Assembly (NCBI GenBank): GCA_024694675.1
Contig: JAILJO010000055.1
Coordinates: 1-37,662, forward strand
DNA from: Bacteroidales bacterium
GTDB taxonomy: Bacteria > Bacteroidota > Bacteroidia > Bacteroidales > UBA932
Reading direction: 5' to 3'
DNA: 37,662 nt
Every line of letters starts with the position of its first letter. Within the stretch, counting starts at the first letter, position 1. The position numbers and the translations under genes are program-made. The notes beneath the pieces are model-generated. The model had not been told where the DNA came from and made no database searches. It saw only the letters and a list, made by a program, of their open reading frames with translations. This document shows positions 13,473 to 37,633 of the stretch, in pieces.

Positions 13473-13784
13473 TTATTTGACCCGATGAGATAACTGATGG
13501 TAAGCAGATTTTGTTACTGCAAGTGACTTAAGTTCTTCATTTGTTGAATGACGATTTGAAAGAAACCATCTCTCAACTTCCTCCCTGTCAAAATATATCT
13601 CTTTTCCGTTCGGGCAATAATATGGAATGCGGTTGGAATTAGTTAGCCGATATATTGTTCGTTTGGTAATACCTGCGATAAGGGCTAAATCTCCAACAGT
13701 AAGGACTCTCTTTGCACTTAGTAGGGCATTTTTCTCTATTCTGTCGAGCCTTGCCTCTATTATTTCAAATTCTTCTTTTGTCAT
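13473..13784 (-). CDS. Excisionase-like helix-turn-helix protein
   Basis: A 103-residue DNA-binding protein of the MerR-like/HTH_17 excisionase type. The helix-turn-helix is at about residues 29-50 (VGDLALIAGITKRTIYRLTN), followed by the wing-like segment ending in FDREEVERWFLS. An N-terminal short coiled-coil (EIIEARLDRIEKNAL) may dimerize it. Such proteins commonly sit in Bacteroides mobile elements next to primase or integrase genes and act in excision or regulation. Its start overlaps the primase stop (ATGA), so it is translationally coupled. Its DNA is visibly more A/T-rich than its neighbours. No integrase partner is present. Confidence 0.8.
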   Translation of the reverse strand: MTKEEFEIIEARLDRIEKNALLSAKRVLTVGDLALIAGITKRTIYRLTNSNRIPYYCPNGKEIYFDREEVERWFLSNRHSTNEELKSLAVTKSAYHQLSHRVK

Positions 13785-14680
13785 AATGATGGAGATAATG
13801 TAATGTTTGCCGTATAGCCCCGGGAGGCCTGGAGCATTTCGCTGATGTCTTTGAATTGGCCGTAGAGGTCGGACATGTCCACCACATCCTTCCCTTTCAG
13901 GAGGTCACGGACGCCCTGGTAGCAGCGCTCACCGGCGGCATCGTTGTCCAGGAAACAAGTGGCGCCGTCGTGCTGCTTGAGGTATTCGGCGGCCTTGCCA
14001 AGATTGTTGACGGAGTTCAGGATGACTACGTCGCAGCTGGGCAACTCGCTTCCCTGCATCACGCGCCAAGAAAGGAAATCGAACATCCCTTCAAAGACGG
14101 CCACTTTCTTCGTAGACGGTTTGGAGGTAATCTTTCCCTCCTTATTTATAGTGGTGATTCCCGCTTTGTCGGTTCCCTTATGACCGCTGGGCGACTTCAT
14201 TGCATAGCCTCCGGCGTTGTTGGGAATTCCGAGCAGGGTGAAATGCAGGTCCCGCTGCGGATCATACACGATAATCTCTTTCAGATAGCGCTGGGCCAGG
14301 CTCAGCGGAATCTTCCTCCCCTCCAGGTACTGCAGGAGATAGTTGCTCCGGATGGCCCGGACGGCCTTAATCTGGATGGCTGGACGCAGCTCAACGGCTT
14401 CCTTTACTGCCGAACGGAGCGGCGTGGGTACCAAGCGGGCCAGGAGACTGTAGGCCTCGGCCTGCGAGCATTTCCTCACGCGCATCACCAGGTCCACGTT
14501 AGTCCCGCCCTGCGACAGACCGAAGTCGTACCAGACGTTCTTGACCGGATCCACATGCAGGGACGCATTCTTCTCGCTTCGTAGCGGAGAGGTCCACATG
14601 TTCCGGGCCTTCCCCGGCCTTGCACCCAGGGCTTCCAGCACCTTCCCCAGCGGGATGTTGTACAGTTCGTTGTCGAACAT
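13781..14680 (-). CDS. Toprim-domain primase-like protein of mobile element
   Basis: Likely DnaG-type primase used for replication of the transferred strand. The N-terminal part (residues about 1-70 from this start) resembles a primase zinc-binding module in layout (SPLRSEKNASLHVDPVKNVWYDFG) but lacks an obvious CHC2 cysteine set. The Toprim core is clear: VFEGMFDFLSW holds the conserved Glu, and CFLDNDAAG holds the DxD pair. The track start at 14737 is a TTG that sits inside a candidate promoter/operator, so the ATG at 14680 (MFDNELYNIPLGKVLEALGA) is preferred; this gives 299 residues. It is divergent from the XRE gene and coupled to the HTH gene downstream. Confidence 0.8.
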   Translation of the reverse strand: MFDNELYNIPLGKVLEALGARPGKARNMWTSPLRSEKNASLHVDPVKNVWYDFGLSQGGTNVDLVMRVRKCSQAEAYSLLARLVPTPLRSAVKEAVELRPAIQIKAVRAIRSNYLLQYLEGRKIPLSLAQRYLKEIIVYDPQRDLHFTLLGIPNNAGGYAMKSPSGHKGTDKAGITTINKEGKITSKPSTKKVAVFEGMFDFLSWRVMQGSELPSCDVVILNSVNNLGKAAEYLKQHDGATCFLDNDAAGERCYQGVRDLLKGKDVVDMSDLYGQFKDISEMLQASRGYTANITLSPSL

Positions 14681-14725
14681 ACGAAAATAGTTTATCTTTT
14701 TCTCGGTTTTTCCGATTATTCTACT

Positions 14726-14751
14726 TACTTTTGTCAAGTCAAATTTGACAA
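14726..14751. promoter_or_regulatory. Divergent control region with operator palindrome
   Basis: TACTTTTG at 14726-14733 is an exact plus-strand -7 element pointing at the XRE gene, though no good -33 is seen. Directly downstream is the perfect 12-bp palindrome GTCAAATTTGAC (14738-14749), extended on the right as ATTTGACAA (14743-14751), with another TTGTCAA at 14731. The same 9-mer recurs in two other control regions of the element. An autorepressor site is the likely role. Confidence 0.55.
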
Positions 14752-14822
14752 CGGCGGTTGTTAACTGACATTACAAAGGAAAACAATGCGCCGTAAACGC
14801 CCAAATTTGAAAAGGAAAAATG

Positions 14823-15125
14823 ATGGCAAACGAAGTTAAGAATGCAGCAGTAGAATCTGCCGCCGAGGCCGCTCAGGCCCCGAATTCAAGGGCCAGAATG
14901 CCCTTTTCTCCCGGAACGAAAAAGGGAGCCCGCCTCCGTCCCGTATTTAACTTCCTGATGGACGAAAACGTCTCCCTCTCGGAACTCGGCCGCCGCGTGG
15001 GAATCTCCCGCCAGAGCATGAGCACCCGCTTCGCCGTGGACGACTGCAAAATGTCCGACATGGAAAAGATGGCCGACGCCCTCGGCTACGATTTCGAGTG
15101 GACCTTTAAGAAGAGGCAGCAGTAG
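14823..15125 (+). CDS. Small XRE-type helix-turn-helix regulator
   Basis: A 100-residue protein with an XRE/Cro-like HTH at about residues 45-70 (SLSELGRRVGISRQSMSTRF) after an Ala-rich, probably flexible N-terminus. Start at 14823 (MANEV) is preferred to the ATG one codon earlier. It is divergent from the primase and preceded by a palindrome, so it may repress both directions. Its 3' end overlaps the end of the convergent coupling-protein gene by 20 bases. Target sites are inferred only. Confidence 0.8.
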   Translation: MANEVKNAAVESAAEAAQAPNSRARMPFSPGTKKGARLRPVFNFLMDENVSLSELGRRVGISRQSMSTRFAVDDCKMSDMEKMADALGYDFEWTFKKRQQ

Positions 15126-17040
15126 CCCCCGGCTCCGGATCCGGCCGGTTGAGCTCCTTCTGCACGAGGTTATAGACCTCGTTGCGGATGCGCTTATAGT
15201 TGAGCCGGACCTCCTTCATGATTGTTTCTTTTGTTGTATCGACGACCTGCGGGACTTCCTCCTTGTGGGTCGTCTTTCCGTCTGAAATAATCTCCCCGCA
15301 GAACACCTTCGGGTGGATCTTCTGCCGGTATTCATCGGCCACGTAGCCGCAGAAGGAGCCCTGCGACAGCGCCTCGATGCGGCTGGCCGGGAGCACATCC
15401 CGCTGCTGGAAGGATATGGTGACGTGTTCGGAGGTGTCGCTCTCCTGATAGGAGCGTGTTTCCTGCTCGAACTTGCCGAACGACTTGGACAGTCCCTCGG
15501 CCGTCTCGCCCTTGACAGCACCGGCAAAGACGTTCCCCACTGTGTTGAAGATGACGTCCGACTCCTTCTTGTCGTAGTCTTTCACCAGCTGGGATTTGTC
15601 CTGGGCGCCTAGTACCACAGCGACCTTATTCTGCCGGGCCGTGTTGATGAGGTGGTCCAGGCCTTTCAGGTAGATGGTGGGCAGCTCGTCAATCAGCACG
15701 CCGCAGCGCATCATCCCGGGCCGGTTGATAATCTTGAAGAGCTGGCTCATCAGCATGGCCAGCGTGGTCCCGTAGACCTGCTGCCGGGTGGGATTGTTCC
15801 CCACGCAGACAATCTTCGGATGCTGCGGGTCGTTGATTTGCAGGGAGAAATCGTCCCCGGAGAGCGTCCAGTATAGGGTTTCGGAGGCAAAGCGGTTGAG
15901 CGGCACGCGGGCCGATGCAATCTGGCCCTGCAGCTGCTCGAAGGCCCGGTCCGTGATGGCATCCTGGAAGGTGTTCCGCTTCACATCCAGCTCAGGATAG
16001 CGCTGCATAATCAGCAACACGTGCTTGTAGTTCTGCCCCATCAGCTCGATGAGATGCGGGAAGGTGCAGTACTTGCCGCCCTCGTAGATTCGAAGGAACC
16101 AGATGAGCATGTCCACGTAACAGCGGGCCGACAGCGAGAAGAAATCATCCCCCTTGTTCGTCTCCTTGCTGGCGTTTTTCATGATTACCTCGGCAATCTC
16201 CGTGGCGTCAATGGGGTCCTGCAGATAGCGCGGATGGATGGGGTTGAAGCGATGCGAGTACAACGGGTCGTCGAAGTTCACCACATACATTTCCGGCTTC
16301 ACGCCCTTGTAGCAGTCGATGTTGTCCAGCAGCTCGTTCATCACGCGCTGGGTGAGGTCCGGGAACTTGTAGTCATACACGAAGAGCGAATAGCCCTTCT
16401 GGATCATCTGCCGGATGTAAGGGCCATAGACCGAGTGCGTCTTGCCGGAGCCGGGCGTGCCGATGACCATCGTCCCGCGGAAAGGGTTCACGACATTGAT
16501 GTAGCCCTTGTGCATCTTGCCTTTATCCTGATATCGCGTGGGAATATTGATGCTATAGCGGTTCTCAATGAGCCTTTCGCACTGCGGGAAGGTATCGTTT
16601 CCCCGGTCCATCGTACCGGCCTTCATCGCCCTCCAGGCACGGCCCAGGGCAATGGCTCCCATCAGATAGAGGGCGAAGCCCACCAGCGTCATCACTACGT
16701 ACAGCAGCCCGGTTCCCGCCGCACGTCCGCCGAAGAAAAGAGCCGCCCCTATGCCGATGGGAAGGGCTATCTCCTGCCACTGCGCCTCCTTGGAACTGCC
16801 GCTCCGCACCATCACGGACCAGGTGCAGAAGAACAGCGCAATCAGCCGCACATCCCACCAGTTCTGCATCACACCGGCCTTGTAGATGGCCAGCATCAGC
16901 GAGTCCGTCAGCCCGGCGGTCATGTGCAACTCCGCCCAGAACGGATAGGCCTCATAGTAAATCATTATCAGTACCAGCGCTCCCGAGAAATACAGGAACG
17001 CCGAAAACATGGGTTTAGTTCTTGAATCCATACGCCTCAA
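15106..17040 (-). CDS. mobC: TraG/VirD4-type conjugative coupling protein (MobC of Bacteroides elements)
   Basis: Inner-membrane hexameric ATPase that brings the relaxase-DNA complex to a type IV secretion channel. The N-terminal 135 residues contain several membrane helices (for example FLYFSGALVLIMIYY and LLYVVMTLVGFALYLMGAI). Walker A is GTPGSGKT at 194-201; the Walker B-like stretch is CGVLIDELP near residue 455, followed by the 'ARQNKVAVVLGAQD' sensor region typical of TraG. Length of 644 residues is normal. It follows the relaxase gene by 3 bases, giving the usual mobA-mobB-mobC order. No type IV secretion genes apart from the TraO-like one are present, so transfer would need a helper element. 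Confidence 0.92.
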   Translation of the reverse strand: MRRMDSRTKPMFSAFLYFSGALVLIMIYYEAYPFWAELHMTAGLTDSLMLAIYKAGVMQNWWDVRLIALFFCTWSVMVRSGSSKEAQWQEIALPIGIGAALFFGGRAAGTGLLYVVMTLVGFALYLMGAIALGRAWRAMKAGTMDRGNDTFPQCERLIENRYSINIPTRYQDKGKMHKGYINVVNPFRGTMVIGTPGSGKTHSVYGPYIRQMIQKGYSLFVYDYKFPDLTQRVMNELLDNIDCYKGVKPEMYVVNFDDPLYSHRFNPIHPRYLQDPIDATEIAEVIMKNASKETNKGDDFFSLSARCYVDMLIWFLRIYEGGKYCTFPHLIELMGQNYKHVLLIMQRYPELDVKRNTFQDAITDRAFEQLQGQIASARVPLNRFASETLYWTLSGDDFSLQINDPQHPKIVCVGNNPTRQQVYGTTLAMLMSQLFKIINRPGMMRCGVLIDELPTIYLKGLDHLINTARQNKVAVVLGAQDKSQLVKDYDKKESDVIFNTVGNVFAGAVKGETAEGLSKSFGKFEQETRSYQESDTSEHVTISFQQRDVLPASRIEALSQGSFCGYVADEYRQKIHPKVFCGEIISDGKTTHKEEVPQVVDTTKETIMKEVRLNYKRIRNEVYNLVQKELNRPDPEPGATAASS

Positions 17041-17043
17041 TCT

Positions 17044-18225
17044 TTATCTATGTCTTCCTCTTCTCATGATTTCCTCATCCTCGTGGCGGCGGCTACGCTC
17101 CGCAGCCATCGCAGCCACGAGGCTTTCGGCTGCTTCTTCTGCCGCCGTTTTCTGCCGAGGTTCCTCCCAGACTTTCCACTCGCGGTCCTCCGGAGGCCAC
17201 TTGGTCATCCTGGCTTCTTCGAACTGACCGGCTGTGATGCCCTTCAGCTCGCTGGACTTGAACACGCAGCGGGTCTGGTGGTCGATGAACGTAACGCCGA
17301 ATATTTTACCCTCCTTGGTACGGGAAAAGACAATCCCGATGTTCTTTTTCCGAAGAATCCGGCGGGTATGCAGCTCAGATGTGCCGTTTTTCAAAGCGAT
17401 ACGGGCCAGGTTTGCGACGCGTTGCTTCTCCTTGTCACGTTTCTCTTTCTTGCAATCATCGATGTGCTTGCTGATTTCTTCCATCGCAGGTACGTTCAGG
17501 TCTTTTTCCGGTATTGGCGCCGTGCATTTCCGGCCGGTCTTGGGGTCAACGCCATAGTAAACCAGCATCGGCTTGCGCCGTATCATCTGTTCTTCTACGA
17601 CCACGCCGAACTGTTTCATCAGCATCTTGTACTGCTCGCCGGTAGTAAAGTGATACTTCATGGCCTGCTCCACCAACTCCTCAATCTGCTTCATGGCATC
17701 GCCCCGCGTCGGGTCGAAGCGCTGATAATCCACACGCTCATCTTTCGGCCCCTTGTCCTTCTTCTCTTTCTTTTCTCCCTTGCCAATGGTGAAGCCATAC
17801 TTCGGGGCCAACTCCTTCATCAGCTCCTGGCAGCGCCGGTGTTCCTGATGGTCGGGAATCTTCCTGCCGTCCTTGTCCACTCGCACGGATACGATATGGT
17901 AGTGCTCGCGGCCGATGTCGTTGTGCCGGTAGATGATGAAGGGCTGGTTCCCATAACCGAGTCCCTCCATCATTTCCCGGGCAAAGCTGACAATCTGTTC
18001 CTGGCTCATCCCGTCCGTCACCGACGGATTGATGGACATGTGGAAGGACATCTTCTCGCACCTGCGGCTGCCGCGCTCATACCTCTCGAAAGTCTCAAGC
18101 GGCTTCTCCGGGTTGTCGAGACCCTGGGTATAGACCACGGCAGCCTTGCCATCCTCCACCTTCCTCTCATTGTACTGGAGGCTGGTGGAACAGTGCGGCG
18201 TGGGTGCGTTGATTTTCACTACCAT
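17044..18225 (-). CDS. mobB: MOBP-type relaxase (MobB)
   Basis: Relaxase expected to nick oriT and pilot the strand into a recipient. The N-terminal domain (about 1-150) has a candidate catalytic tyrosine in LQYNERKV (Tyr18), 'KMSFHMSINPS', and the histidine motif HNDIGREHYHIVSVRV that binds the metal. The C-terminal half is basic and helical with no separate enzyme domain recognised. Length of 393 residues fits Bacteroides relaxase/mobilization nuclease proteins. It lies between the SSB-like gene and the coupling protein in one minus-strand operon whose presumed oriT is upstream of mobA. Confidence 0.9.
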   Translation of the reverse strand: MVVKINAPTPHCSTSLQYNERKVEDGKAAVVYTQGLDNPEKPLETFERYERGSRRCEKMSFHMSINPSVTDGMSQEQIVSFAREMMEGLGYGNQPFIIYRHNDIGREHYHIVSVRVDKDGRKIPDHQEHRRCQELMKELAPKYGFTIGKGEKKEKKDKGPKDERVDYQRFDPTRGDAMKQIEELVEQAMKYHFTTGEQYKMLMKQFGVVVEEQMIRRKPMLVYYGVDPKTGRKCTAPIPEKDLNVPAMEEISKHIDDCKKEKRDKEKQRVANLARIALKNGTSELHTRRILRKKNIGIVFSRTKEGKIFGVTFIDHQTRCVFKSSELKGITAGQFEEARMTKWPPEDREWKVWEEPRQKTAAEEAAESLVAAMAAERSRRHEDEEIMRRGRHR

Positions 18226-18265
18226 CTCAGAAACAGTTCAGGTCAATCGAGTAAATCCGAATCAG

Positions 18266-18571
18266 TCAGCTCTCCTTCGGGAGCAGCGCCAGGTCCAGGC
18301 TACCCACCCAGACGTCAAGGTTCACATATGTCTTGCCTTCCTTCTCCACCACGTTCACCTTCAGGTTCCCGAGGATGTACACGAATCGTCCCTTCTTCAG
18401 GTACTCGACGATGCCGGTCTTCTTCATCCGGCAAGTGTAGTACGTCGGTTTTTCTTCCTTGTCCCGGCCGTCCTTCACGGCCACGTCGAAGCGGAGCATC
18501 TCGGCCCCTTCCTTCCCTTGGATTACCTCGCAATCCTTGGCGAGGTTCCCTGAAATCAAAATGTTTTGCAT
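18266..18571 (-). CDS. Single-stranded DNA-binding protein-like (OB fold)
   Basis: A 101-residue OB-fold protein resembling the core of SSB: MQNILISGNLAKDCEV at the start, central 'LRFDVAVKDG', 'YYTCRMKKTG', and GRFVYILGNLKVNV. It lacks the acidic C-terminal tail of chromosomal SSB, so it may not recruit the usual SSB partners. Its place between mobA and mobB suggests it coats the single strand during transfer. It is 22 bases downstream of mobA and 40 bases upstream of mobB. Confidence 0.85.
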   Translation of the reverse strand: MQNILISGNLAKDCEVIQGKEGAEMLRFDVAVKDGRDKEEKPTYYTCRMKKTGIVEYLKKGRFVYILGNLKVNVVEKEGKTYVNLDVWVGSLDLALLPKES

Positions 18572-18593
18572 AATGCGTTTGGGTTAAAAATGG

Positions 18594-19046
18594 TTATACA
18601 TAAGAGGAATCATCATCCTCACTTTCTTTCTCATCTCCTTCTTCACCGGCGCAGCCGGTCACCTCCTCCCGGATGACCGAAAAGGTCTTGACCATTTCGG
18701 TCATCATCTCCTTCATCTCGGTCATATCGTGCCCGATGTCCCGCGCATTGATGATGATGTTCCCGTGCCTGTCGCGCACGAGGGCAAGTCGGTTGAGCGT
18801 CTTCACGCGCTGGTTGTAGTTCACGCCGATACGCTTGAGATCCAGGCGGAGCAACTCGATCTGCTTCGCCACGTTTGCCTCATTCAGACTAAGGTTTCTG
18901 CGCTTGCGGACGCGCGTAGAAAGCAGCGCGTCACGGATGTACCTTGAACGGTTGTTATACCCGGAAAGATGCATCTGGGTATTCAGCTTCTCGAACTCTT
19001 TCTCCGAGAAACGCACGTTGACATAGTGTTTTCTAATCTCTCTCAC
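18594..19046 (-). CDS. mobA: MobA/MobC-type relaxosome accessory protein (ribbon-helix-helix)
   Basis: Small DNA-binding protein that helps the relaxase at oriT. The N-terminal core KHYVNVRFSEKEFEKLN followed by GYNNRSRYIRDALLS is a ribbon-helix-helix of the Bacteroides MobA/'plasmid mobilization relaxosome MobC' type. The tail is strongly acidic (GDEKESEDDDSS). The track start at 19304 would translate through a highly structured, Cys/Gly-rich segment that looks like oriT, so a later start is preferred: GTG at 19046 (VREIRKHYVNV), about 150 residues. That start is a judgement; the GTG at VETVF is an alternative. Confidence 0.8.
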   Translation of the reverse strand: MREIRKHYVNVRFSEKEFEKLNTQMHLSGYNNRSRYIRDALLSTRVRKRRNLSLNEANVAKQIELLRLDLKRIGVNYNQRVKTLNRLALVRDRHGNIIINARDIGHDMTEMKEMMTEMVKTFSVIREEVTGCAGEEGDEKESEDDDSSYV

Positions 19047-19146
19047 AATACCAAACTCTACATTAAACACTGTCTCCACTGCCCAGACGGGCTTCAGGCC
19101 CGAAAGCAGGCGACTTTGGAGCCTGCAACGCCCGCCGTAGGCGCAC

Positions 19147-19193
19147 GAGATGGCCCCGCAGGGGTCTGCGTTCGTGACACGAACGCCCATCTC
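19147..19193. other. Candidate origin of transfer: three-way folded inverted repeats
   Basis: An outer pair GAGATGG (19147-19153) / CCATCTC (19187-19193) encloses two hairpins: CCCC-GCA-GGGG (19154-19164) and GCGTTCGTG-A-CACGAACGC (19168-19186). A further hairpin CGGGC-TTCAG-GCCCG lies just to the left (about 19088-19102). This structure is directly upstream of mobA, the usual oriT position in Bacteroides mobilizable elements. The nic site is not identified. Confidence 0.6.
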
Positions 19194-19266
19194 GCAATCT
19201 GGACTAACGCCCAGATTCACCGCTCCTTTATAAGTCGCGCTGCAAACATAGGCATTTTGTGGCAAA

Positions 19267-19311
19267 TTGACAAATATAATTTGACAAAGTAATATAAAAC
19301 TCATACATTTG
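19267..19311. promoter_or_regulatory. Divergent promoters for mobA and gene 19511
   Basis: Plus strand: TTG at 19281-19283, 20 nt, TACATTTG at 19304-19311, an excellent Bacteroides promoter toward 19511. Minus strand: TATATTTG (19278-19271) is a -7 match toward mobA, without a clear -33. Two TTGACAAA copies (19267-19274, 19281-19288) overlap both, so a bound protein would affect both directions. Confidence 0.65.
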
Positions 19312-19510: not shown

Positions 19511-19822
19511 ATGACACAATTGGACGAATTCAGGGAGCAGCTGAGACAGCGCCCAAAGTTACATCAAGATGAGAGAGACAAGCCGGTGGCCGAGGAGCCC
19601 TCGGCGCCAAAGAAGGTGAGAAAGAAAAAGGATGTCCCCCAGGAACGGGCGGCCGTCTGGATTCCCAAGGAGGTCCAGCGCAAGGTCCGCCTGCTGGGAA
19701 TCTGGCTGGATTTAGAAGGACTGGAGGATGCCCCCTCCCTCGGCGATGTCATCACTGAGGCAATTGAGCATCTTATCGACACCAAGTACCCAAAAGCGAA
19801 GAAATATGTCGAGAGAAGTTAG
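19511..19822 (+). CDS. Small basic, DUF3408/partition-type DNA-binding candidate
   Basis: A 103-residue protein with a charged, disordered N-terminus (PKKVRKKKD) and a C-terminal fold, about residues 45-100, reminiscent of ribbon-helix-helix or TraB/TraC (DUF3408) proteins of Bacteroides transfer elements: WIPKEVQRKVRLLGIWL then SLGDVITEAIEHLIDTKYPKA. The family assignment is tentative. Repeat arrays lie on both sides: CTTGATA repeats upstream and ATGTCG repeats from its last codons onward, which suggests a protein that binds its own flanks, as partition proteins do. No ParA ATPase is next to it. A good promoter lies at 19281-19311. Confidence 0.6.
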   Translation: MTQLDEFREQLRQRPKLHQDERDKPVAEEPSAPKKVRKKKDVPQERAAVWIPKEVQRKVRLLGIWLDLEGLEDAPSLGDVITEAIEHLIDTKYPKAKKYVERS

Positions 19823-19906
19823 TTTTTTTCGATAGAATGTCGATGAAATGCAGAAATATGTCGGTTGAGTGCAGAAAAATGTCGATAGTATGTCGAGTGC
19901 ATGTCG
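19806..19906 (+). repeat. ATGTCG array phased on the DNA helix
   Basis: Six exact ATGTCG copies begin at 19806, 19837, 19858, 19879, 19890 and 19901. The intervals are 31, 21, 21, 11 and 11 bases, all near multiples of 10.5, so every copy faces the same side of the helix. Longer shared context (TGCAGAAA.ATGTCG) surrounds two of the copies. The array starts in the end of gene 19511 and its last copy covers the possible pgeF start codon at 19901. Confidence 0.8.
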
Positions 19907-20608
19907 GGGAAAATGACTAAATTTGGAGTCATGTTCGACGGACTGCTGAAATATGACCTGGGAGCCGGTGTGGAAGCGTTTTCCACGCAGCGGGATGCAG
20001 TCCTTCCCTATGAAGTGACGCAAGGGCATCAAGTCCACGGCAGCCGTGTGGCCATCATCAAGCGAGCAGGTATGACGCGGGAAGAGTTGGAGGGCTACGA
20101 TGCCTTTATCACCAAACTTCCCGGCGTAGCCATCGGTGTCCGTACGGCCGATTGCGTGCCCATTCTCATCTATGACCCGGTAAAGCGAGTCATTGCCGCC
20201 GTTCACGCAGGCTGGAAAGGGACAGTGCTGCACATCGTTCAAGGAGCTATCACTGCAATGACACAGGTTTTCAAGTGCAACCCTGCCGATATGAAAGCGG
20301 TCATTGGCCCCGGCATCGGCCCGGACAGTTTTCAGGTCGGTGAAGAAGTGGCCGTTCAGTTCAAAGAGACGGGTTTCCCCATGGATGATATATGGTCCTT
20401 CCGTGGTCCAGGCGATGGAACGCCTATGTCCGGAGGCCATCACATAGACCTTTTCAAGCCCAACCGCTGGCTGCTGGAGCAGGCCGGAATCCCTGCTGAA
20501 AGCATTCAGGTCTGCGGAATCGACACCTACACCACCGAAGCCTTTTTCTCTGCGCGGCGTGAGGGTGTGGAATGCGGACGAATCATCAATTCCATCAAAC
20601 TGATATAG
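19901..20608 (+). CDS. pgeF: PgeF/YfiH-family protein (peptidoglycan-editing/laccase-domain, purine nucleoside phosphorylase-like)
   Basis: Cytoplasmic metal-binding enzyme; family members have been reported to act as purine nucleoside phosphorylase/adenosine deaminase and, in E. coli, to limit L-Ser misincorporation into peptidoglycan. The three zinc-ligand motifs are present: QVHG (His46), RTADCVPIL (Cys85) and HAGWKG (His102). 'VIGPGIGPDSFQVG' and 'GIDTYTTEAFFSARR' are also typical. About 235 residues, a normal length. The start may be 19901 or 19913 (MTKFGV); the former overlaps the last ATGTCG repeat. It is an unusual passenger in a plasmid-like block, lying after gene 19511 and probably read from the same promoter. 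Confidence 0.88.
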   Translation: MSGKMTKFGVMFDGLLKYDLGAGVEAFSTQRDAVLPYEVTQGHQVHGSRVAIIKRAGMTREELEGYDAFITKLPGVAIGVRTADCVPILIYDPVKRVIAAVHAGWKGTVLHIVQGAITAMTQVFKCNPADMKAVIGPGIGPDSFQVGEEVAVQFKETGFPMDDIWSFRGPGDGTPMSGGHHIDLFKPNRWLLEQAGIPAESIQVCGIDTYTTEAFFSARREGVECGRIINSIKLI

Positions 20609-20620
20609 AACGGACAGCCG

Positions 20621-20644
20621 GTCAGGCGGGTTTACCCGACTGAC
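20621..20644 (+). other. Stable hairpin after pgeF
   Basis: GTCAG-g-CGGG-TTTA-CCCG-a-CTGAC: two stem blocks separated by a single mismatch. It lies 12 bases after the pgeF stop. No T-run follows, so it is a possible processing or stability structure rather than a classical terminator. The following 150 bases to about 20790 contain another imperfect hairpin (GAGAC 20713 / GTCTC 20745) and no gene I can support. Confidence 0.5.
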
Positions 20645-20792
20645 GGGCGGTAAGAGGCGCGGCGGTGGAACAGTCTCTGACGGGCTTGTCCTGGCAGAGT
20701 CTGTGGAACCGTGAGACTTTCGCGGCGGCTTTGCCGACGTGAAGGTCTCAAGCGCCGTTCAGCGGAGACGAAGCGGCAGGTTCACCTGACGC

Positions 20793-20851
20793 TTGGTCGG
20801 AGCGGAGTTTTTAGTTACATTTGCAATACGACACGACGGAACGTACATTTG
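20793..20851 (+). promoter_or_regulatory. Two overlapping Bacteroides-type promoters in tandem
   Basis: Promoter A: TTG 20793-20795, 20 nt, TACATTTG 20816-20823. Promoter B: the TTG that ends promoter A's -7 element (20821-20823), 20 nt, then a second TACATTTG at 20844-20851. Both -7 boxes match TAnnTTTG exactly and the spacing is identical. They point into a structured stretch with no long gene. Confidence 0.75.
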
Positions 20852-21037
20852 CTAATGGCCAGAGCAGGCCCCTGTTCCGCCGTGATGCCTTTCGGGCATA
20901 GCCGGAGTCCTTTTTCATGCGGGGCTCCGGTTTAAGCCTTTTGGGCTTTTCCTCCTCCTCACCTCGGAAATTGAAGCAAGCTTCATTTCTCTCGGTTCGT
21001 CGTCGGTTCGTTTTGTGCCTCGGGCTGCAGCACAAGT
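20830..21037 (+). ncRNA. Candidate structured RNA downstream of tandem promoters
   Basis: Consecutive hairpins follow the promoters: ATGCC/GGCAT (20885-20899), CCGGAG/CTCCGG (20902-20930), AAGCC-TTTTG-GGCTT (20934-20948), and GAAA-TGAAG/CTTCA-TTTC (20967-20989, one bulge). Such a dense series after two good promoters suggests a regulatory RNA or attenuated leader. The 3' end is not clear; the next strong hairpin belongs to the convergent radC remnant. No known RNA family is recognised. Confidence 0.4.
20855..20935 (+). CDS. Possible 26-residue peptide inside the structured locus
   Basis: ATG at 20855 opens a frame of 26 codons (MARAGPCSAV... ending FSCGAPV) that stops at 20935. It would sit about 25 bases after a start from promoter A. 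No ribosome-binding site is evident, and the frame spans two hairpins, so it could be a leader peptide or simply chance. It is the only small ORF consistent with the promoter positions. Confidence 0.25.
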   Translation: MARAGPCSAVMPFGHSRSPFSCGAPV

Positions 21038-21066
21038 AAACCCCCGCTATGCTGTAGCGAGGGTTT
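21038..21066 (-). terminator. Hairpin at the end of the radC remnant
   Basis: AAACCC-C-CGCTA / TAGCG-A-GGGTTT with a 5-nt loop and one internal mismatch, overlapping the radC stop codon. On the minus strand it is followed by a weak TTTACTT stretch. It could act in both directions and end the candidate RNA as well. Confidence 0.55.
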
Positions 21067-21474
21067 GGAGGATGGTTTCGTTGTAATCGGCTTTACGCTC
21101 TTCCGTGAAGGAGTAGTAGGAGGAATCGGAGATGATGATGTGGTCGAAAAGGTGTAGCTCTACTGCTGCGCAGGCTTTTTCAAGAGTCTTGGTAGCCAGT
21201 ACATCTGCCTTGCTGGGCATGGGATCACCCGTAGGATGGTTGTGTGCGATGATTATCCCCTGGGCCCCAAGAAGTAATGCATGACGTAGAATCTGCTTGT
21301 TGTCGATAGTAGTAAGGGTAAAGCCGCCCTTAGAAATCTGCATACGCTTGATGATGGTGTTCTTGCGGGAGAGATAAAGGATCCAGCACTCCTCATAGTC
21401 CCTTCATGACAGGCAACAGATAGAAACTGGCAAGGTCGGCATTTTTGATTTGCACGTTCGTGTTTACCGGGATT
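21047..21474 (-). pseudogene. radC: radC (JAB/MPN-domain) remnant with frameshift
   Basis: The 98-codon track ORF covers the C-terminal RadC domain, with the JAMM motif IIAHNHPTGDPMPSKAD and 'DHIIISDSSYYSF'. Upstream of its first ATG the RadC sequence continues in frame (YEECWILYLSRKN), meets a stop, and then continues in another frame as QIKNADLASFYLLPVMK. Removing one G from a GGG run near 21400 would join the halves as VMKDYEECWIL. A further stop lies upstream, and the N-terminal helix-hairpin-helix part is absent. Either a decayed gene or a sequencing error in the G-run. RadC-like proteins are common passengers in Bacteroides elements; their function is not settled. Confidence 0.75.
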
Positions 21475-21570
21475 TATACCATGTACTCGGAAATCGCTTC
21501 TCTCAGAACACCTATTCTGTCCAGTTGCTCATTGGAGAAACCCTCTGATTGATGGAGGCAACGAAGAAAA

Positions 21571-21694
21571 AGTATTCAAAACTAAGGAACGGCTCCGAAA
21601 AGTATTCAATCCTTAGGAAGAAAGTATTCAAAACTTAGGAAACAGGTACTCAAAACTTAGGAGACCGGGGCGGAAAAGTATTCAATTCTTAGAA
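21571..21694 (+). repeat. Five plasmid-type iterons
   Basis: 18-bp repeats of consensus AGTATTCAAAACTTAGGA at 21571, 21601, 21623, 21645 and 21677 (spacings 30, 22, 22, 32). The third matches the consensus fully; the others differ at one to four positions. They lie downstream of the Rep_3 gene and are the expected binding sites of its product, so this is a probable replication origin. Confidence 0.85.
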
Positions 21695-21874
21695 AACCAG
21701 CCCTGCGACACACCATTCAAGCATCATATACACAACGAATTAACGACGCCTCAAAAGCGCCGTACAAATTGAATCAATACAAGTATAAATAAATATCTCA
21801 ACAACGTGTGTACGTACGCGGAAAAGAGATGAGAAAGAAAATGAGAAGATGCCCGGCGGGCCGGGGATGATTGG
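21695..21874. other. A/T-rich non-coding stretch next to iterons
   Basis: No gene is supported. The A/T-rich part (about 21718-21806, AAGTATAAATAAATATC) next to the iterons could be the strand-opening region of the origin. I see no convincing DnaA box. Confidence 0.4.
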
Positions 21875-22903
21875 TCAGAAGTCCGAATAGCGCAGCAGCC
21901 AGTCGGAATGCCAGGCCAGCATGGCGGCGTGAACATAGGCGTCCACATTGGAAATACCCCGGCGGATGCGAATGTCGGCCGTGAGGCTGGCCAACTTGTC
22001 CGTGAACGAATGCATATCCTCGAAATCCAACTGTTTCCAGATGTCGGCAATGGCCTGTGCATGCCCCCCTGCTGTATTCATCAGTAAACGACATGCATCC
22101 CAGGCCTCCTGAGTGGCCTTGATTCGTGTCTCTTCATCCACCTGATAGCCAATTTTAAAGCAGATGTACTGGCGGTCGGAGCGAAGCAGCAGCCGGAAAT
22201 CGAACCAGATGGGATAATGCTCCCGCAAATCGGCGGCTGACGGTTTCAAGATATGCGTTACAATATTGTCCGAACGGTCATAAGACGGCCCCAGTGTGAG
22301 CATCCGCCGAAGTTCGTCAATACTTAGGACAAAACCGCCGCGATTACGCCAGGAGCAGACCAGCCAGTAGAGCCGAACGGTGTATTTGTTGGCCATTGAA
22401 AGCGCTGCCTGACAGGAATAGGCGGTGTACCCCTCTTCCACCAGAAGCAAGCGGGCCACCATTTGCTCCTGCAGGAAGATTTCAACGTCGTGGGCGTAAG
22501 CCTGAAATCGGAACCCATCTATGAATCCGGTGAAATGATTCTTCTGCTCGCTGTCTGGAAAACGGATGGCAGTATGCTCCAGTTCCCGAAGACAAGCGCG
22601 GAGCCGGGCGCCATTCTTCTCTCCAATGTGAAAAGCCTGCATCGGGATGGTCAACACCCGGTATCCAAGGTCATTCTTCGGCGGCAGGAAAACCTCCGGC
22701 ACACCCTTCCTTTCATTGCCTCTCGTCAGGCGCAATCTTATCGCTCGTTGGAACTCCGAAATGATGGCCATCAAGATACGGAGGTGATTCAATTTTAAAT
22801 CGGCTTCTATGTATGTTATTCCGTTGACATGAAGCAGCTCATCCTTGCGCTGAGGTGCGTCAGGACGTCTTTTTTTGCTTGAAGATGTCAACTTTTTTCT
22901 CAC
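21875..22903 (-). CDS. Rep_3-superfamily plasmid replication initiator
   Basis: Initiator with two winged-helix domains that binds iterons and starts plasmid replication. The family feel comes from 'YTVRLYWLVCSWRNRGGFVLSIDELRRML' region (quoted in part: YTVRLYWLVCSW), 'LHVNGITYIEADLKLNHLRIL' near the N-terminus, and overall layout. The track start (23125) and the ATG of MKVIFVISIF lie upstream of an excellent minus-strand promoter, so they are rejected; a GTG at 22903 (VRKKLTSSSKKRRPD) just after the promoter gives about 342 residues, normal for the family. TTG at 22891 is an alternative. Five iterons lie just downstream of the gene. Confidence in family is good, in start moderate. Confidence 0.8.
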   Translation of the reverse strand: MRKKLTSSSKKRRPDAPQRKDELLHVNGITYIEADLKLNHLRILMAIISEFQRAIRLRLTRGNERKGVPEVFLPPKNDLGYRVLTIPMQAFHIGEKNGARLRACLRELEHTAIRFPDSEQKNHFTGFIDGFRFQAYAHDVEIFLQEQMVARLLLVEEGYTAYSCQAALSMANKYTVRLYWLVCSWRNRGGFVLSIDELRRMLTLGPSYDRSDNIVTHILKPSAADLREHYPIWFDFRLLLRSDRQYICFKIGYQVDEETRIKATQEAWDACRLLMNTAGGHAQAIADIWKQLDFEDMHSFTDKLASLTADIRIRRGISNVDAYVHAAMLAWHSDWLLRYSDF

Positions 22904-22924
22904 AAAGTAAGCTGGTTTTTGTCG

Positions 22925-22982
22925 CAAAAGTATCTGAAATTTTTTGAAAGAACAAAATTTTACCTTTCCTTTGTTGTCAAAT
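22925..22982 (-). promoter_or_regulatory. rep promoter with upstream shared motif
   Basis: Minus strand: TTTG (22956-22953), 20 nt, TACTTTTG (22932-22925), an exact Bacteroides promoter. The 8 bases AAAAGTAT over the -7 box match the start of an iteron, which would allow Rep autoregulation. Upstream, ATTTGACAA (22982-22974 on the minus strand) repeats the motif found at 14743 and 19279. The divergent traO-like gene starts at 23028. Confidence 0.7.
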
Positions 22983-23027
22983 ATCGTATGACAATGCAAG
23001 ATTAAATGCGTCAGGCGAAAGATTGAA

Positions 23028-23603
23028 ATGACAAAAATGACTTTCATAAGCAAAGCATACGGAACCGTCCTCGCTGGATTGTTCCTAATCCTCTCGTGTA
23101 CCTCGGCCTCGGCCCAGCGGACCATTTCTGGCCAATCTACCCTTGCAATCTCTTCGCACTACACCGGCACGTCCGTGGGGGCCGAGGCTTTCTATTCGCA
23201 ATACACCCTAGGCGGTTTCTGGGAGTCCGGCATCATGGTACCCCCCTACCGTTACGGGCTTTCCACAAACCATATTCTTGACGACTGGCACATTTCTGCC
23301 GCCGGGGCCTACCTCTGGAGACTCGCAGCCACGCGCAGCCGCAGTTTTAACTGGTATGCAGGCGCGGGCGTATTCGCGGGTATAGAATGGTTGGACCCGT
23401 TCGGGCATCTGCCTGATTACATCGATCTGGGAACAGCCAATATCCGTTTCCTGTATGGCGTCTATGTAAAGACCAGCTTGGAAATCTTCATCTCTTCCAG
23501 GTTCGCCCTGCTGGTCCAGGGCGCCCTTCCTGTCAACTTTTCCTCCTATGCCGGAAACACCCACTGGCAGGCTGGACTGGGAATCAAATTCATGCTCAAC
23601 TAA
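23028..23603 (+). CDS. TraO-like outer-membrane beta-barrel protein
   Basis: A 191-residue exported protein: signal peptide to about residue 29 (LFLILSCTSASAQ), then alternating amphipathic strands and a C-terminal strand ending GIKFMLN, as in small outer-membrane barrels. The order of strands (ISAAGAYLWRL, WYAGAGVFAGIEWLDPFG, LEIFISSRFALLVQG, WQAGLGIKFMLN) resembles TraO of Bacteroides conjugative transposons, a transfer-apparatus protein. No other tra assembly gene is nearby, so it may be a remnant or serve another purpose such as surface exclusion. It is divergent from rep and followed 12 bases later by the methyltransferase-like gene. Confidence 0.65.
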   Translation: MTKMTFISKAYGTVLAGLFLILSCTSASAQRTISGQSTLAISSHYTGTSVGAEAFYSQYTLGGFWESGIMVPPYRYGLSTNHILDDWHISAAGAYLWRLAATRSRSFNWYAGAGVFAGIEWLDPFGHLPDYIDLGTANIRFLYGVYVKTSLEIFISSRFALLVQGALPVNFSSYAGNTHWQAGLGIKFMLN

Positions 23604-33820: not shown

Positions 33821-36800
33821 TCAGTGGATTTGACTTAAGTATTTTTGTTTGGAGGCAGGTGCAGTTATGGTTAGAGATTTCCACTGGCGGGGCAAGGTTT
33901 CATTCGATTTCAAGAGGGCGTCCGGAGTGATGTCATATCCGCCGAATCCGTAAATGACGGCCTGAAGGAGGGCGCCTGCACCGGTGAGGAAGTATGGATT
34001 TCCGGAGACGGGGGTTTCGGCGAGGGCGCAGAAGGGCTGGCGGAGGTTGGGCTCAAAACTGCGGCGGAAGAACTCATATGCTTTGTCTGTATCACCAAGT
34101 CTGGCATACTGCACCGCGAAAATGCCCCAGGTCATTGCTGGGCCGTCCTTTGAGTCAATTCTTGGGGCATAGTACTCCAAGTCCCTGCGGATTCGTTCCG
34201 GATCTGTAATAAGCCCCAGCGGATACGCCAGAAGGTTTGGATCGGCCTGTTTGGTAAGCCGCCCGTCATAGCATTCGTAATCAAGGGTGATACCGTCCTT
34301 CTCAGGAATGACGAGGCTCTCGGCGATTGAACTCCAGTTGTTCGGGACGGATTCTCCAAGAATTCCGGCAGCTTTGACGGCAGCGCGGAGCGCAAGCTTT
34401 GCGGAGCCGTTGGTAAAGGCATTGTTATCAACGTGCTGGGCATATTCATCGGCCCCTACTACGTCCCGGATGGAATAGCTGCCGTCTAGGTTGGGAGTAA
34501 CACGGCTTTCGAGGAACCGGGCGACTCCATTGAGAAGCGGCCAGCATTCCCGGAGCTTCTCCTTGTCATGCGTTACCAGATACCGGTTCCAGGCGGCAAT
34601 GGCGATATCGGCGGATATATGGTGCTCAAGCGGACCGGTAAGGGCCCAGGACGGGGTTGTCTCCTTGCCGTCCCAGTCGGATTCCCAAGGAAACATAAGT
34701 CCATTGTAGCCGAATTCCCTGGCGCGGGCGGCGGCTCCGGTCATACGGTCCAGACGGTACCGGAGCATTGAATCGGCCATCCCGGGATTCATTATCAGCA
34801 TCACCGGATACATCCACATCTCCGAGTCCCAGAAGACGTGACCGTTATACCCTTTTCCGGTAAGGCCCATCGGTGAAACGCTGAGGCCCGTCCCTTCGCG
34901 GATGGACCCGTAAAGGTTGAAAAGAGCCATCCTCACCGCTTGTTGTGAAAGCGGATCTCCATCTATGACGATATCTCCCTTCCAAAGGTCTTCCCACGCC
35001 TTGCGGTGCTGCCTGATGGCTTTTTTGACTCCCGTTTTTCTCAGTTCCTCCAATTGCTTCCGGGCCTCGGCGGCAGGGTCTTCGGACTCCAATCCGGTGA
35101 CAATGGACGAGGCGATGACAAAGTGCCCGGGGCGCTTGTCTATAAGGCCTGTTGCCGTAGAAACTTTATATCTGCCGTGAGGAGTTGAACTGTCAATGAA
35201 GCTGTCTTCCAGTCCGATAAACTCCACTTTCAATCCCCGTGGCGCATCTGTGGAAACATCCATTAGAAGGCAGTTCGGGTGAGCCCTGAGGGCGATGATG
35301 CGGTATTGCACGGAGACCTTTCCGTCGGCAACGAAAGAAGTGCGATGCTCGGCATTCCGGATATCCACGGTCTGCTGCCAGCGGGTAATATTCCAGTCAC
35401 ACCGTCCATCGATTATCATTGAAATATTGAAAGGGACGGGGCCATCCGGTACGGCGTCCACACCTGCGGCATCGTCATAATCGAAAACGTGGTTAAGCAT
35501 TACACGCTCCACGGAAAAGGGTTCCTTCCCGGGCAGTATGCCAAGACGGCCGTTCGCCATTGCCATACCATAGTACTCAGAGGCGGTGTGGTCAGTTGCC
35601 GTGATGCTCCAGTCGTCGAAAGAGGCCAAGGGCTTGAAATTGACGGCCTGTCCGCCTCCGGGGGCAAGGACAATGTCCAAGGTATCTTCTGAAGTTACGA
35701 CGCGAGTGCTGATGGTGTAAGCGTAAGGATTTGATTTCCAGTTGGCATCCGGAGCGTCGGCATAGATGGTTGCCGTATATATGACTCCCGGCGTCAGAAA
35801 GGAGAGAGGCTGGTTCAATGTGCGGCCCTCTTCGTTTGTGACTGCACCGTAGAAGAACTCGTCCTCGGCACGGCGCACTATGGCCACATACTGGCCGATT
35901 TCTCCCTGAAGGGCCCTGGACCAGTCACAGTCCGGTTTGAAGTCCCGGAAGAACTGGAAAGCCGGATGGCCCTCGTAGTTCTGGATGAGGTCCGCCGCCA
36001 TCTGCATGGGAGAATACAGAACAACCCACAGGGCAATCTGCTTTGCCAGGGTGGTGTTCACGCGGCACTGGGAAGAGTGCACGTTGTTCCAGACCTTGAC
36101 GTCAGGACTTCCGGCGATGGACTTGTACTGGATGTCAAAGATTCCCGGCGTGTAGTCCATGGGCCCGCTCAGGAGGCGGGTGAACGGAAGTATCTCGTGG
36201 TGAGAGGGTTTGTTGCCGCTGCTCCAGGCGTTCCATTCCATGCCGCGGGCTCCTTCACGGGTCATGAAGTTGGGATAGGTCCTCCGGAGGCCGGTTTCCT
36301 TGATGGGCTCGTGAGCATCTACCATAATATGCCTTTTGGCGGCCTCTGCGGCCACTTTTGCATAGTGCCTCACGCCGTACTGGCTGTGATGGTAATGGCC
36401 GTCAAGGAGCCAGCCGGCATAGCCGGTCTTGAGTGAATGAATGCCCCTTTCCGCCGCAAAGTCAAGGTCGCGTTCAAGCTGCTTTTCATACCAGGCAACC
36501 TCTCCGGCGGTCTCGTGATGGATGATGTAATCCACGCCCTTTTCACGCGCATAGGCCAACACTTTGTCCAGGTCGAAGTCCGGTGCCGGACAGGTGAAAT
36601 CGAAGTCGTGATGCGCCCAGCCAAGGGTCCAGCCATCGTTCCAGCCTTCTAACAGCACGGCATCCACGTTGTTATCGGCAGCAAAGTCTATGTACTTTAT
36701 TGCATTCTCCGTGGTGGCCCCGTGCCTGTGGCCCTTGCCCCAGGAATTGAGGCCCAGGTGCATTCCCCACCATACGCCCACGTACTTGGCCGGCTTGATC

Positions 36801-37633
36801 CAGGACACATCCTCCAGGGCGCAGGGCTCGTTGAGGTTCAGGATAAGGCCGGAATTGATAAGGTCCACCGCTTTCCTTCCAATCTGCACCGTCCTCCATG
36901 GAGTTTTGAAAGTTCCAGGGACGATTGCTTTCTGCTCCAGGTTCTCCGGTCCGTCCGGCGCCAGGGCGGCCACGAAGCCGTTCCCGGCCTTCTTGAGCGT
37001 CATCTCCGGAAAGTCCATCAGGGCGGCCTCATGGATACTGCCGTAAAGGCCGCCGTCGGTGTGGAAAGTCATGGGAGTATTGGCATCCTGGAGCTCGGAA
37101 AGCTTCATCCGACGGTACTCCTGCTCATAGGAATCGAAGTTTGCCGGAATGGACCAGCTGTCACCGTCAGAGGCAACATTGAACTGTGTGAGTTCATCAG
37201 TTATAACCAGACTATCCCTAATCTTATACTCATAGCGGAATCCGGCCCCGTCATCGAACACCCTGAAACGGAGAGTGAGACAGGCGTCGTCATTGGCAAG
37301 CCGTACTTTCAGTTCGCGGTGATTATCAGTTATCTCTTTGTTCTCTCCCCAGGGCTGCCGCCAGGAATCTTTATGAGAGGAGACCTTTGTGCCCAGCAGG
37401 TGGAAGCCATCTTTCAGGTTAACCAGATTGGCATTGTGCCCAAGGGCCGATTCGGCGATAAATGGCTTACCGTCAACAGATATGGAGTACAGAGGCTCTC
37501 CGCTTCCTGAGAGGGAAAACAGCAGTTTAATGCTGCCGTCAGGGGATGTGACGGAGGTTTTTGGGGTACAGGAAAAAAGCAGAAATACAGCCACTAGATT
37601 GACAAGCCGTGTTATGGTCAAGATACTATTCAT
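33821..37633 (-). CDS. GH97-GH65 fusion lipoprotein (two glycoside hydrolase modules)
   Basis: 1270 residues, lipobox LLFSC (Cys22). Residues about 27-665 are GH97: N-terminal beta domain with 'GGLYGSIHEAAL', catalytic barrel with KYVGVWWGMHLG, KTGYAGWLLDGH, VDAHEPIKETGLRRTYPN and GPMDYTPGIFD. Gly in KTGYAG, where retaining GH97 enzymes have the nucleophile Asp, and the VDAHE glutamate (Glu442) point to the inverting SusB-like alpha-glucosidase branch. Residues about 670-1265 are a complete GH65: beta-sandwich, then NGHVFWDSEMWMYP and VVGADEYAQHVDNNAFTN, whose Glu1063 is the general acid. AETPVSGNPYFLTGAG places Glu1206 where hydrolase-type GH65 enzymes have the general base, so a hydrolase (for example kojibiose-type), not a phosphorylase, is inferred. 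Both modules look intact. No SusCD is adjacent within the window. Confidence 0.9.
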   Translation of the reverse strand: MNSILTITRLVNLVAVFLLFSCTPKTSVTSPDGSIKLLFSLSGSGEPLYSISVDGKPFIAESALGHNANLVNLKDGFHLLGTKVSSHKDSWRQPWGENKEITDNHRELKVRLANDDACLTLRFRVFDDGAGFRYEYKIRDSLVITDELTQFNVASDGDSWSIPANFDSYEQEYRRMKLSELQDANTPMTFHTDGGLYGSIHEAALMDFPEMTLKKAGNGFVAALAPDGPENLEQKAIVPGTFKTPWRTVQIGRKAVDLINSGLILNLNEPCALEDVSWIKPAKYVGVWWGMHLGLNSWGKGHRHGATTENAIKYIDFAADNNVDAVLLEGWNDGWTLGWAHHDFDFTCPAPDFDLDKVLAYAREKGVDYIIHHETAGEVAWYEKQLERDLDFAAERGIHSLKTGYAGWLLDGHYHHSQYGVRHYAKVAAEAAKRHIMVDAHEPIKETGLRRTYPNFMTREGARGMEWNAWSSGNKPSHHEILPFTRLLSGPMDYTPGIFDIQYKSIAGSPDVKVWNNVHSSQCRVNTTLAKQIALWVVLYSPMQMAADLIQNYEGHPAFQFFRDFKPDCDWSRALQGEIGQYVAIVRRAEDEFFYGAVTNEEGRTLNQPLSFLTPGVIYTATIYADAPDANWKSNPYAYTISTRVVTSEDTLDIVLAPGGGQAVNFKPLASFDDWSITATDHTASEYYGMAMANGRLGILPGKEPFSVERVMLNHVFDYDDAAGVDAVPDGPVPFNISMIIDGRCDWNITRWQQTVDIRNAEHRTSFVADGKVSVQYRIIALRAHPNCLLMDVSTDAPRGLKVEFIGLEDSFIDSSTPHGRYKVSTATGLIDKRPGHFVIASSIVTGLESEDPAAEARKQLEELRKTGVKKAIRQHRKAWEDLWKGDIVIDGDPLSQQAVRMALFNLYGSIREGTGLSVSPMGLTGKGYNGHVFWDSEMWMYPVMLIMNPGMADSMLRYRLDRMTGAAARAREFGYNGLMFPWESDWDGKETTPSWALTGPLEHHISADIAIAAWNRYLVTHDKEKLRECWPLLNGVARFLESRVTPNLDGSYSIRDVVGADEYAQHVDNNAFTNGSAKLALRAAVKAAGILGESVPNNWSSIAESLVIPEKDGITLDYECYDGRLTKQADPNLLAYPLGLITDPERIRRDLEYYAPRIDSKDGPAMTWGIFAVQYARLGDTDKAYEFFRRSFEPNLRQPFCALAETPVSGNPYFLTGAGALLQAVIYGFGGYDITPDALLKSNETLPRQWKSLTITAPASKQKYLSQIH

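Follow-up and report, generated by a model that had tools for sequence, protein, structure and literature searches.

Why should two consensus promoters stand ahead of a run of hairpins with no long gene? The question is raised by positions 20793-21037 of the window, a 37,662-nucleotide stretch of Bacteroidales DNA, contig 114 in an assembly of 157 contigs and 2.1 Mb. The original prediction was that tandem promoters drive a single hairpin-rich locus of about 200 bases, giving either a regulatory RNA, for example one controlling replication or transfer, or a leader peptide and attenuator. We find that the interval cuts across three unrelated modules, here termed A, B and C, and that the strongest structure lies mostly on its 5′ side (20609-20815). 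The best explanation from the sequence comparisons is that an integrated mobilizable element carries a cassette-like array of cargo genes, and that the stretch would be the distal end of this array, where the last position has a promoter but no gene. The features are as follows.

13473..19304, minus strand: mobilization backbone with HTH, toprim, T4CP-like, relaxase, SSB-like and MobC-like genes (Pfam), in the same order in relatives
14820-15125, plus strand: small ORF within the mobilization backbone
19511..19822, plus strand: small gene that lies ahead of the cargo array in relatives; no Pfam hit; labelled DUF3408 without Pfam support
19901..20608, plus strand: cargo gene, pgeF/laccase-like (Cu-oxidase_4, Pfam), ending in a stop codon 3 nt ahead of module A
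20612..20807, plus strand (model match 20609-20815): module A, structured inter-cargo module with helices P1-P5 (covariation, folding)
20793..20823, plus strand: promoter 1 (predicted), TTG at 20793 and TACATTTG at 20816-20823; compared with loci L063 and L062
20821..20851, plus strand: promoter-like site 2, TTG at 20821 and TACATTTG at 20844-20851
20828..20932, plus strand: module B, three hairpins of which the last is terminator-like (covariation, folding)
20855..20935, plus strand: 26-codon ORF, not conserved
20933..21007, plus strand: repeat C, a REP/MITE-like dispersed palindrome behind B (absent at the L062 site, dispersed copies)
21047..21343, minus strand: RadC-like gene, 98 aa (Pfam)
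21569-21695: five 21-nt iteron-like repeats beside the Rep3-type gene
21875..23125, minus strand: Rep3-type initiator gene (Pfam)

The two exact boxes, each with a TTG 20 nt to its 5′ side, are present as predicted, and the second TTG falls within the first −7 box, which thus doubles as the −33 element of the second site. The motif TTG-N20-TAnnTTTG occurs seven times in the window where 0.11 would be expected from shuffles, and this is more than chance. Both sites fit the consensus of the Bacteroidales primary sigma factor, with TAnnTTTG at −7 and a TTTG or TTG element near −33 (PMC7366714), and are predicted promoters by sequence. Of the two, promoter 1 alone has a positional counterpart in relatives, where the same place is taken by the promoter of a cargo gene such as the nitroreductase of L063. 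The −7 box of site 2 is not conserved, other copies of B having TTCTTTTG or similar there, and a start from it would delete the 5′ arm of helix 1 of module B. Tandem promoters for one locus are therefore not borne out by the relatives. Nor is a leader peptide: the ORF is there, yet its homologue in L062 has just nine codons, and a search for a shared peptide among 13 copies of B found none, the longest ATG ORFs in the others ranging from 6 to 29 codons.

What is the structured material on either side of promoter 1? Module A is an element of 195-270 nt lying mostly 5′ of the interval. Folded as RNA, 20609-20815 gives z = −6.1, with none of 200 shuffles as good. The original prediction had proposed looking for compensatory base changes among relatives, and these are found. 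In an alignment of 22 copies comprising 68 pairs, 91.4% of the cells are paired and 33 of the 68 pairs have two-sided changes. The covariation score is 0.313, compared with 0.129 for shuffled alignments and at most 0.065 when the structure is slid; the structure was derived from the copy in the window, which biases it in its own favour against the slid versions, whereas the shuffles avoid this but take no account of how closely the copies are related. The sense strand folds better than its complement (mean −129 versus −100 kcal/mol), G-U pairs outnumber A-C (30 versus 9), and CUUG loops are frequent; tetraloops of RNA type have served elsewhere as an argument for RNA (PMC2864571). Together these properties favour RNA over DNA. 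Some copies are missing P2-P4, and a T-run like that of an intrinsic terminator is absent from the module. Searching the window against Rfam at the gathering threshold, 20580-21100 down to E 5 and six other loci down to E 0.5 returned a tRNA and chance-level matches only, with no family matching A or B. As judged from alignment, folding and Rfam, module A is an uncatalogued folded RNA-like module of ∼200 nt.

Downstream of promoter 1 the folding signal is real but moderate. For the 214 nt of 20824-21037 the folding energy is −75.2 kcal/mol, matched or bettered by 3 of 200 shuffles (z = −2.3), so the hairpin richness that was predicted does exist; part of it, at 20933-21007, is the inserted repeat C, unrelated to the rest. 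Covariation in module B is modest, four pairs having two-sided changes among 13 copies, a number reached by 30 of 500 shuffles; its paired cells and score exceed those of all 500. B was found in 14 of 32 genomes, all 14 being among the 22 chosen for A, with none in the 10 that lack A. It usually stands at the distal end of an array, but not always, since a further A follows it in L064 and L122. The prediction of structured RNA is thus upheld by compensatory changes that are strong in A and modest in B, and nothing was found that ties this DNA to the control of replication or transfer.

Repeat C is absent from the same site in L062, the closest relative, and splits a gene in L002 whose counterpart in L014 is uninterrupted. 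It is found in 15 of 18 genomes, partly chosen for C, at 0-13 copies each. In its hairpin 12 of 14 pairs have two-sided changes with almost no G-U, variation that is as expected of a DNA palindrome. A Y1 transposase was considered as its source; in the one genome tested, that of the window, there is a single Y1_Tnp match and no copy of C in its 3.3-kb locus, and the candidate was rejected.

The position of module A is best seen by comparing arrays. BLAST shows that the stretch just 5′ of the interval recurs, often in more than one copy per contig, and profile searches and locus layouts place the copies of A between cargo genes that differ from one to the next and are unrelated. In 11 of the 30 copies listed, the 5′ edge of A is at most 6 nt from a stop codon on the same strand, and most copies lie 45-76 nt ahead of the next start codon; the gene calls come from a longest-ORF script, so that not every neighbour is a real gene and some distances between stop codon and A are assigned to the wrong gene. 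The 3′ edge lies just 5′ of the promoter of the next gene, and the promoter motif follows A ahead of unrelated genes. A scan of about 1 Mb, both strands counted, finds the pattern CGCnnAAA[AT]T...TAnnTTTG 12 times, 10 of these after the 3′ end of A and one of the other two after a fragment of A; the pattern was composed after viewing the spacers, in loci chosen for A, and is descriptive rather than an independent test. More generally, module boundaries, motif and compared loci were among the choices made while viewing the data. Where the neighbouring gene is divergent, its promoter motif is often about 10 nt from the 5′ edge of A; since the upstream gene points away at such sites, A cannot be a 3′ UTR there. 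A small lysine- and arginine-rich protein of 71-102 aa without a Pfam hit, which we call MKPK, is encoded in many of the arrays, often directly after A (L062 10527-10835 and relatives).

The arrangement in the window can be read against two relatives. Over the 322 nt from A through B it is 93% identical to L062; the gene ahead of A differs. In L063 pgeF is followed by A as in the window, and then by the nitroreductase. In the window A runs directly into B; we call the slot empty because no gene follows promoter 1. Deletion of a nitroreductase was considered, but loss is not established, as L062 has the same A-B junction. If confirmed, this reading would explain a promoter without a gene as a vacant array position, and as a trap for annotation from sequence only.

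The surroundings are those of the element. The RadC-like gene is apparently shortened, at 98 aa compared with 198 aa in L075. The iteron-like repeats are unusual, given that the neighbours of the element are of chromosomal type. The recombinase beside the toprim gene is of serine type in L062 (1834-3426) and of tyrosine type in L075 (2825-4051), and in the window no recombinase was seen there. Further along, a 1270-aa ORF (33821-37633, minus strand) combines GH97 domains and a central GH65 domain in one chain.

How widespread is module A? Our model R1 matches 32 of 400 genomes of the genus and 5 of 300 of the family (E ≤ 1e-6), and among 295 of the order (E ≤ 1e-3) the genome of the window and one weak match. 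The latter (genome G722, locus L092, E 8e-9) was set aside as uncertain, its neighbourhood being known as an ORF list alone. Among 19 genomes preselected for A-like sequence 17 match, mostly with 1-4 copies that are mainly on the array contig; some copies in these counts trained R1, and first-look filters drop weak ones. The closest copies are in records of Bacteroidales MAGs, several from rumen, omasum or reticulum, and the comparisons rest nearly all on MAGs. Most strong matches are tied to the same mobilizable-element family, and A also occurs on contigs without mobilization genes. In L140, L136 and L125 a cluster of pgeF, c135 and MKPK lies in a fetched stretch without mobilization genes, and some of the A copies there are short and lack P2-P4. 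Plasmid and phage collections gave no match to the region of the stretch, an exact-pattern scan of viral contigs found none, and we found no account of such an arrangement in the open-access literature.

Comparison of L064 with L065 shows that cargo moves between distantly related backbones. Their cargo genes (AlaX-like, nitroreductase, c135 and MKPK) are 88-96% identical and differ in order; for relaxase, MobC and Rep3 the identity is 42-47%. DUF3575 is 88% identical, so the backbone genes have not all diverged to the same degree. Between L122 and L064 there is an indel of a [c73 + A] segment, with a crossover in the final ∼31 nt of A, a position that homologous recombination could equally produce. 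L071, L074 and L086 have exactly 238 nt of A in common at ∼94%, with different flanks. The notion that A always travels with its upstream gene was dropped, because A of the window is closer to that of L062, with which it shares the downstream side, than to that of L063, with which it shares the upstream gene. Rather, A seems to have been exchanged at its two edges, and not carried along with one gene.

We give about an even chance to an account in which A and B are transcribed along with the cargo mRNAs and form a structured 3′ end. They would also insulate the promoter of the next cargo gene, and the repeated copies of A would be sites of cargo exchange, probably by homologous recombination. 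In the window, at the distal end of the array, a transcript from promoter 1 would pass through B and stop near the last B hairpin. This account is favoured by the location of A between different cargo genes, its covariation, its G-U excess, lower energy and CUUG loops on the sense strand, its abutment on stop codons and its spacing to the next start, by the match to L062 and the pgeF-A-nitroreductase order of L063, by cargo that is far more alike than relaxase, MobC and Rep3, and by the [c73 + A] indel. It is weakened by the divergent upstream genes, the lack of a T-run, the copies of B that are not terminal and those of A without P2-P4. That A is a regulatory RNA of the element in its own right, controlling transfer or copy number for example and lying between cargo genes by chance, is unlikely: this would accord with the conserved sense-strand fold and the tie of most strong matches to one element family, but less well with several copies per array, with the want of a conserved promoter directly 5′ where A abuts a stop codon, and with copies on contigs that have no mobilization genes. 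Least probable by a wide measure is the original prediction, in which tandem promoters express a regulatory RNA, or else an attenuator that includes a leader peptide of 26 residues; the boxes are of consensus quality and hairpins follow, but the second box and the ORF are not conserved and promoter 2 would start inside the first helix of B.

The remaining alternatives treat A as DNA that moves or is recombined. We doubt that A is an integron-like cassette recombination site, folded as single-stranded DNA and recognized by a putative recombinase. The form of the array, with a single A to each cargo unit, tight junctions between gene and A and shuffled cargo, would suit such a site, as would the L122/L064 crossover near the 3′ edge. 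We took the features of attC sites (PMC2727003) as the comparison. R boxes (RYYYAAC / GTTRRRY) are present near the ends of A in none of 22 copies, in which complementarity between the ends is at the shuffled level and there are no terminal inverted repeats. The bottom-strand folding expected of attC is not seen, A favouring the sense strand, and no integron integrase (TIGR02249) scored above the cut-off in 16 genomes, the best reaching 83 against 265 bits in what are incomplete MAGs. By these tests A does not have the features of attC, and its apparent replacement at both edges speaks against a unit that moves with one gene. It is rather improbable that A is a MITE-like small mobile DNA with intergenic preference and an outward promoter: the common 238 nt in different flanks and the promoter motif ahead of unrelated genes would fit, but copies are few and largely clustered in arrays, terminal inverted repeats are lacking, and no empty site was found. 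A further idea, to which we give similarly little weight, is that A may be the capture or exchange site of a non-integron cassette system, where the joining of cargo would be directed by a large folded nucleic acid, perhaps the RNA itself.

Comparison with known systems sets the 3′-end and exchange account in context. REP and MITE repeats are, like C, short dispersed palindromes with compensatory changes and insertions polymorphic between relatives; unlike REP, C has no GTAG/CGTC tag at the foot of the stem that we could recognize by eye (families in PMC3733652), and no copy lies beside the sole Y1 transposase locus of the genome. In integron arrays, as in those of A, unrelated genes each stand beside a conserved folded element of variable length and sequence, and cargo order varies among relatives; the cargo genes of A arrays differ in having their own promoters. 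If confirmed, this would be cassette-like gene exchange without a recognizable integron integrase, and A would represent a structured RNA family not yet catalogued, associated with the part of a Bacteroidales mobile element in which the cargo varies. A resembles STAXI (RF01728) and other candidate RNAs of mobile elements, which are likewise repeated structured motifs near DNA-handling genes; STAXI is a repeated pseudoknot, whereas module A is built of five helices and matches no Rfam family.
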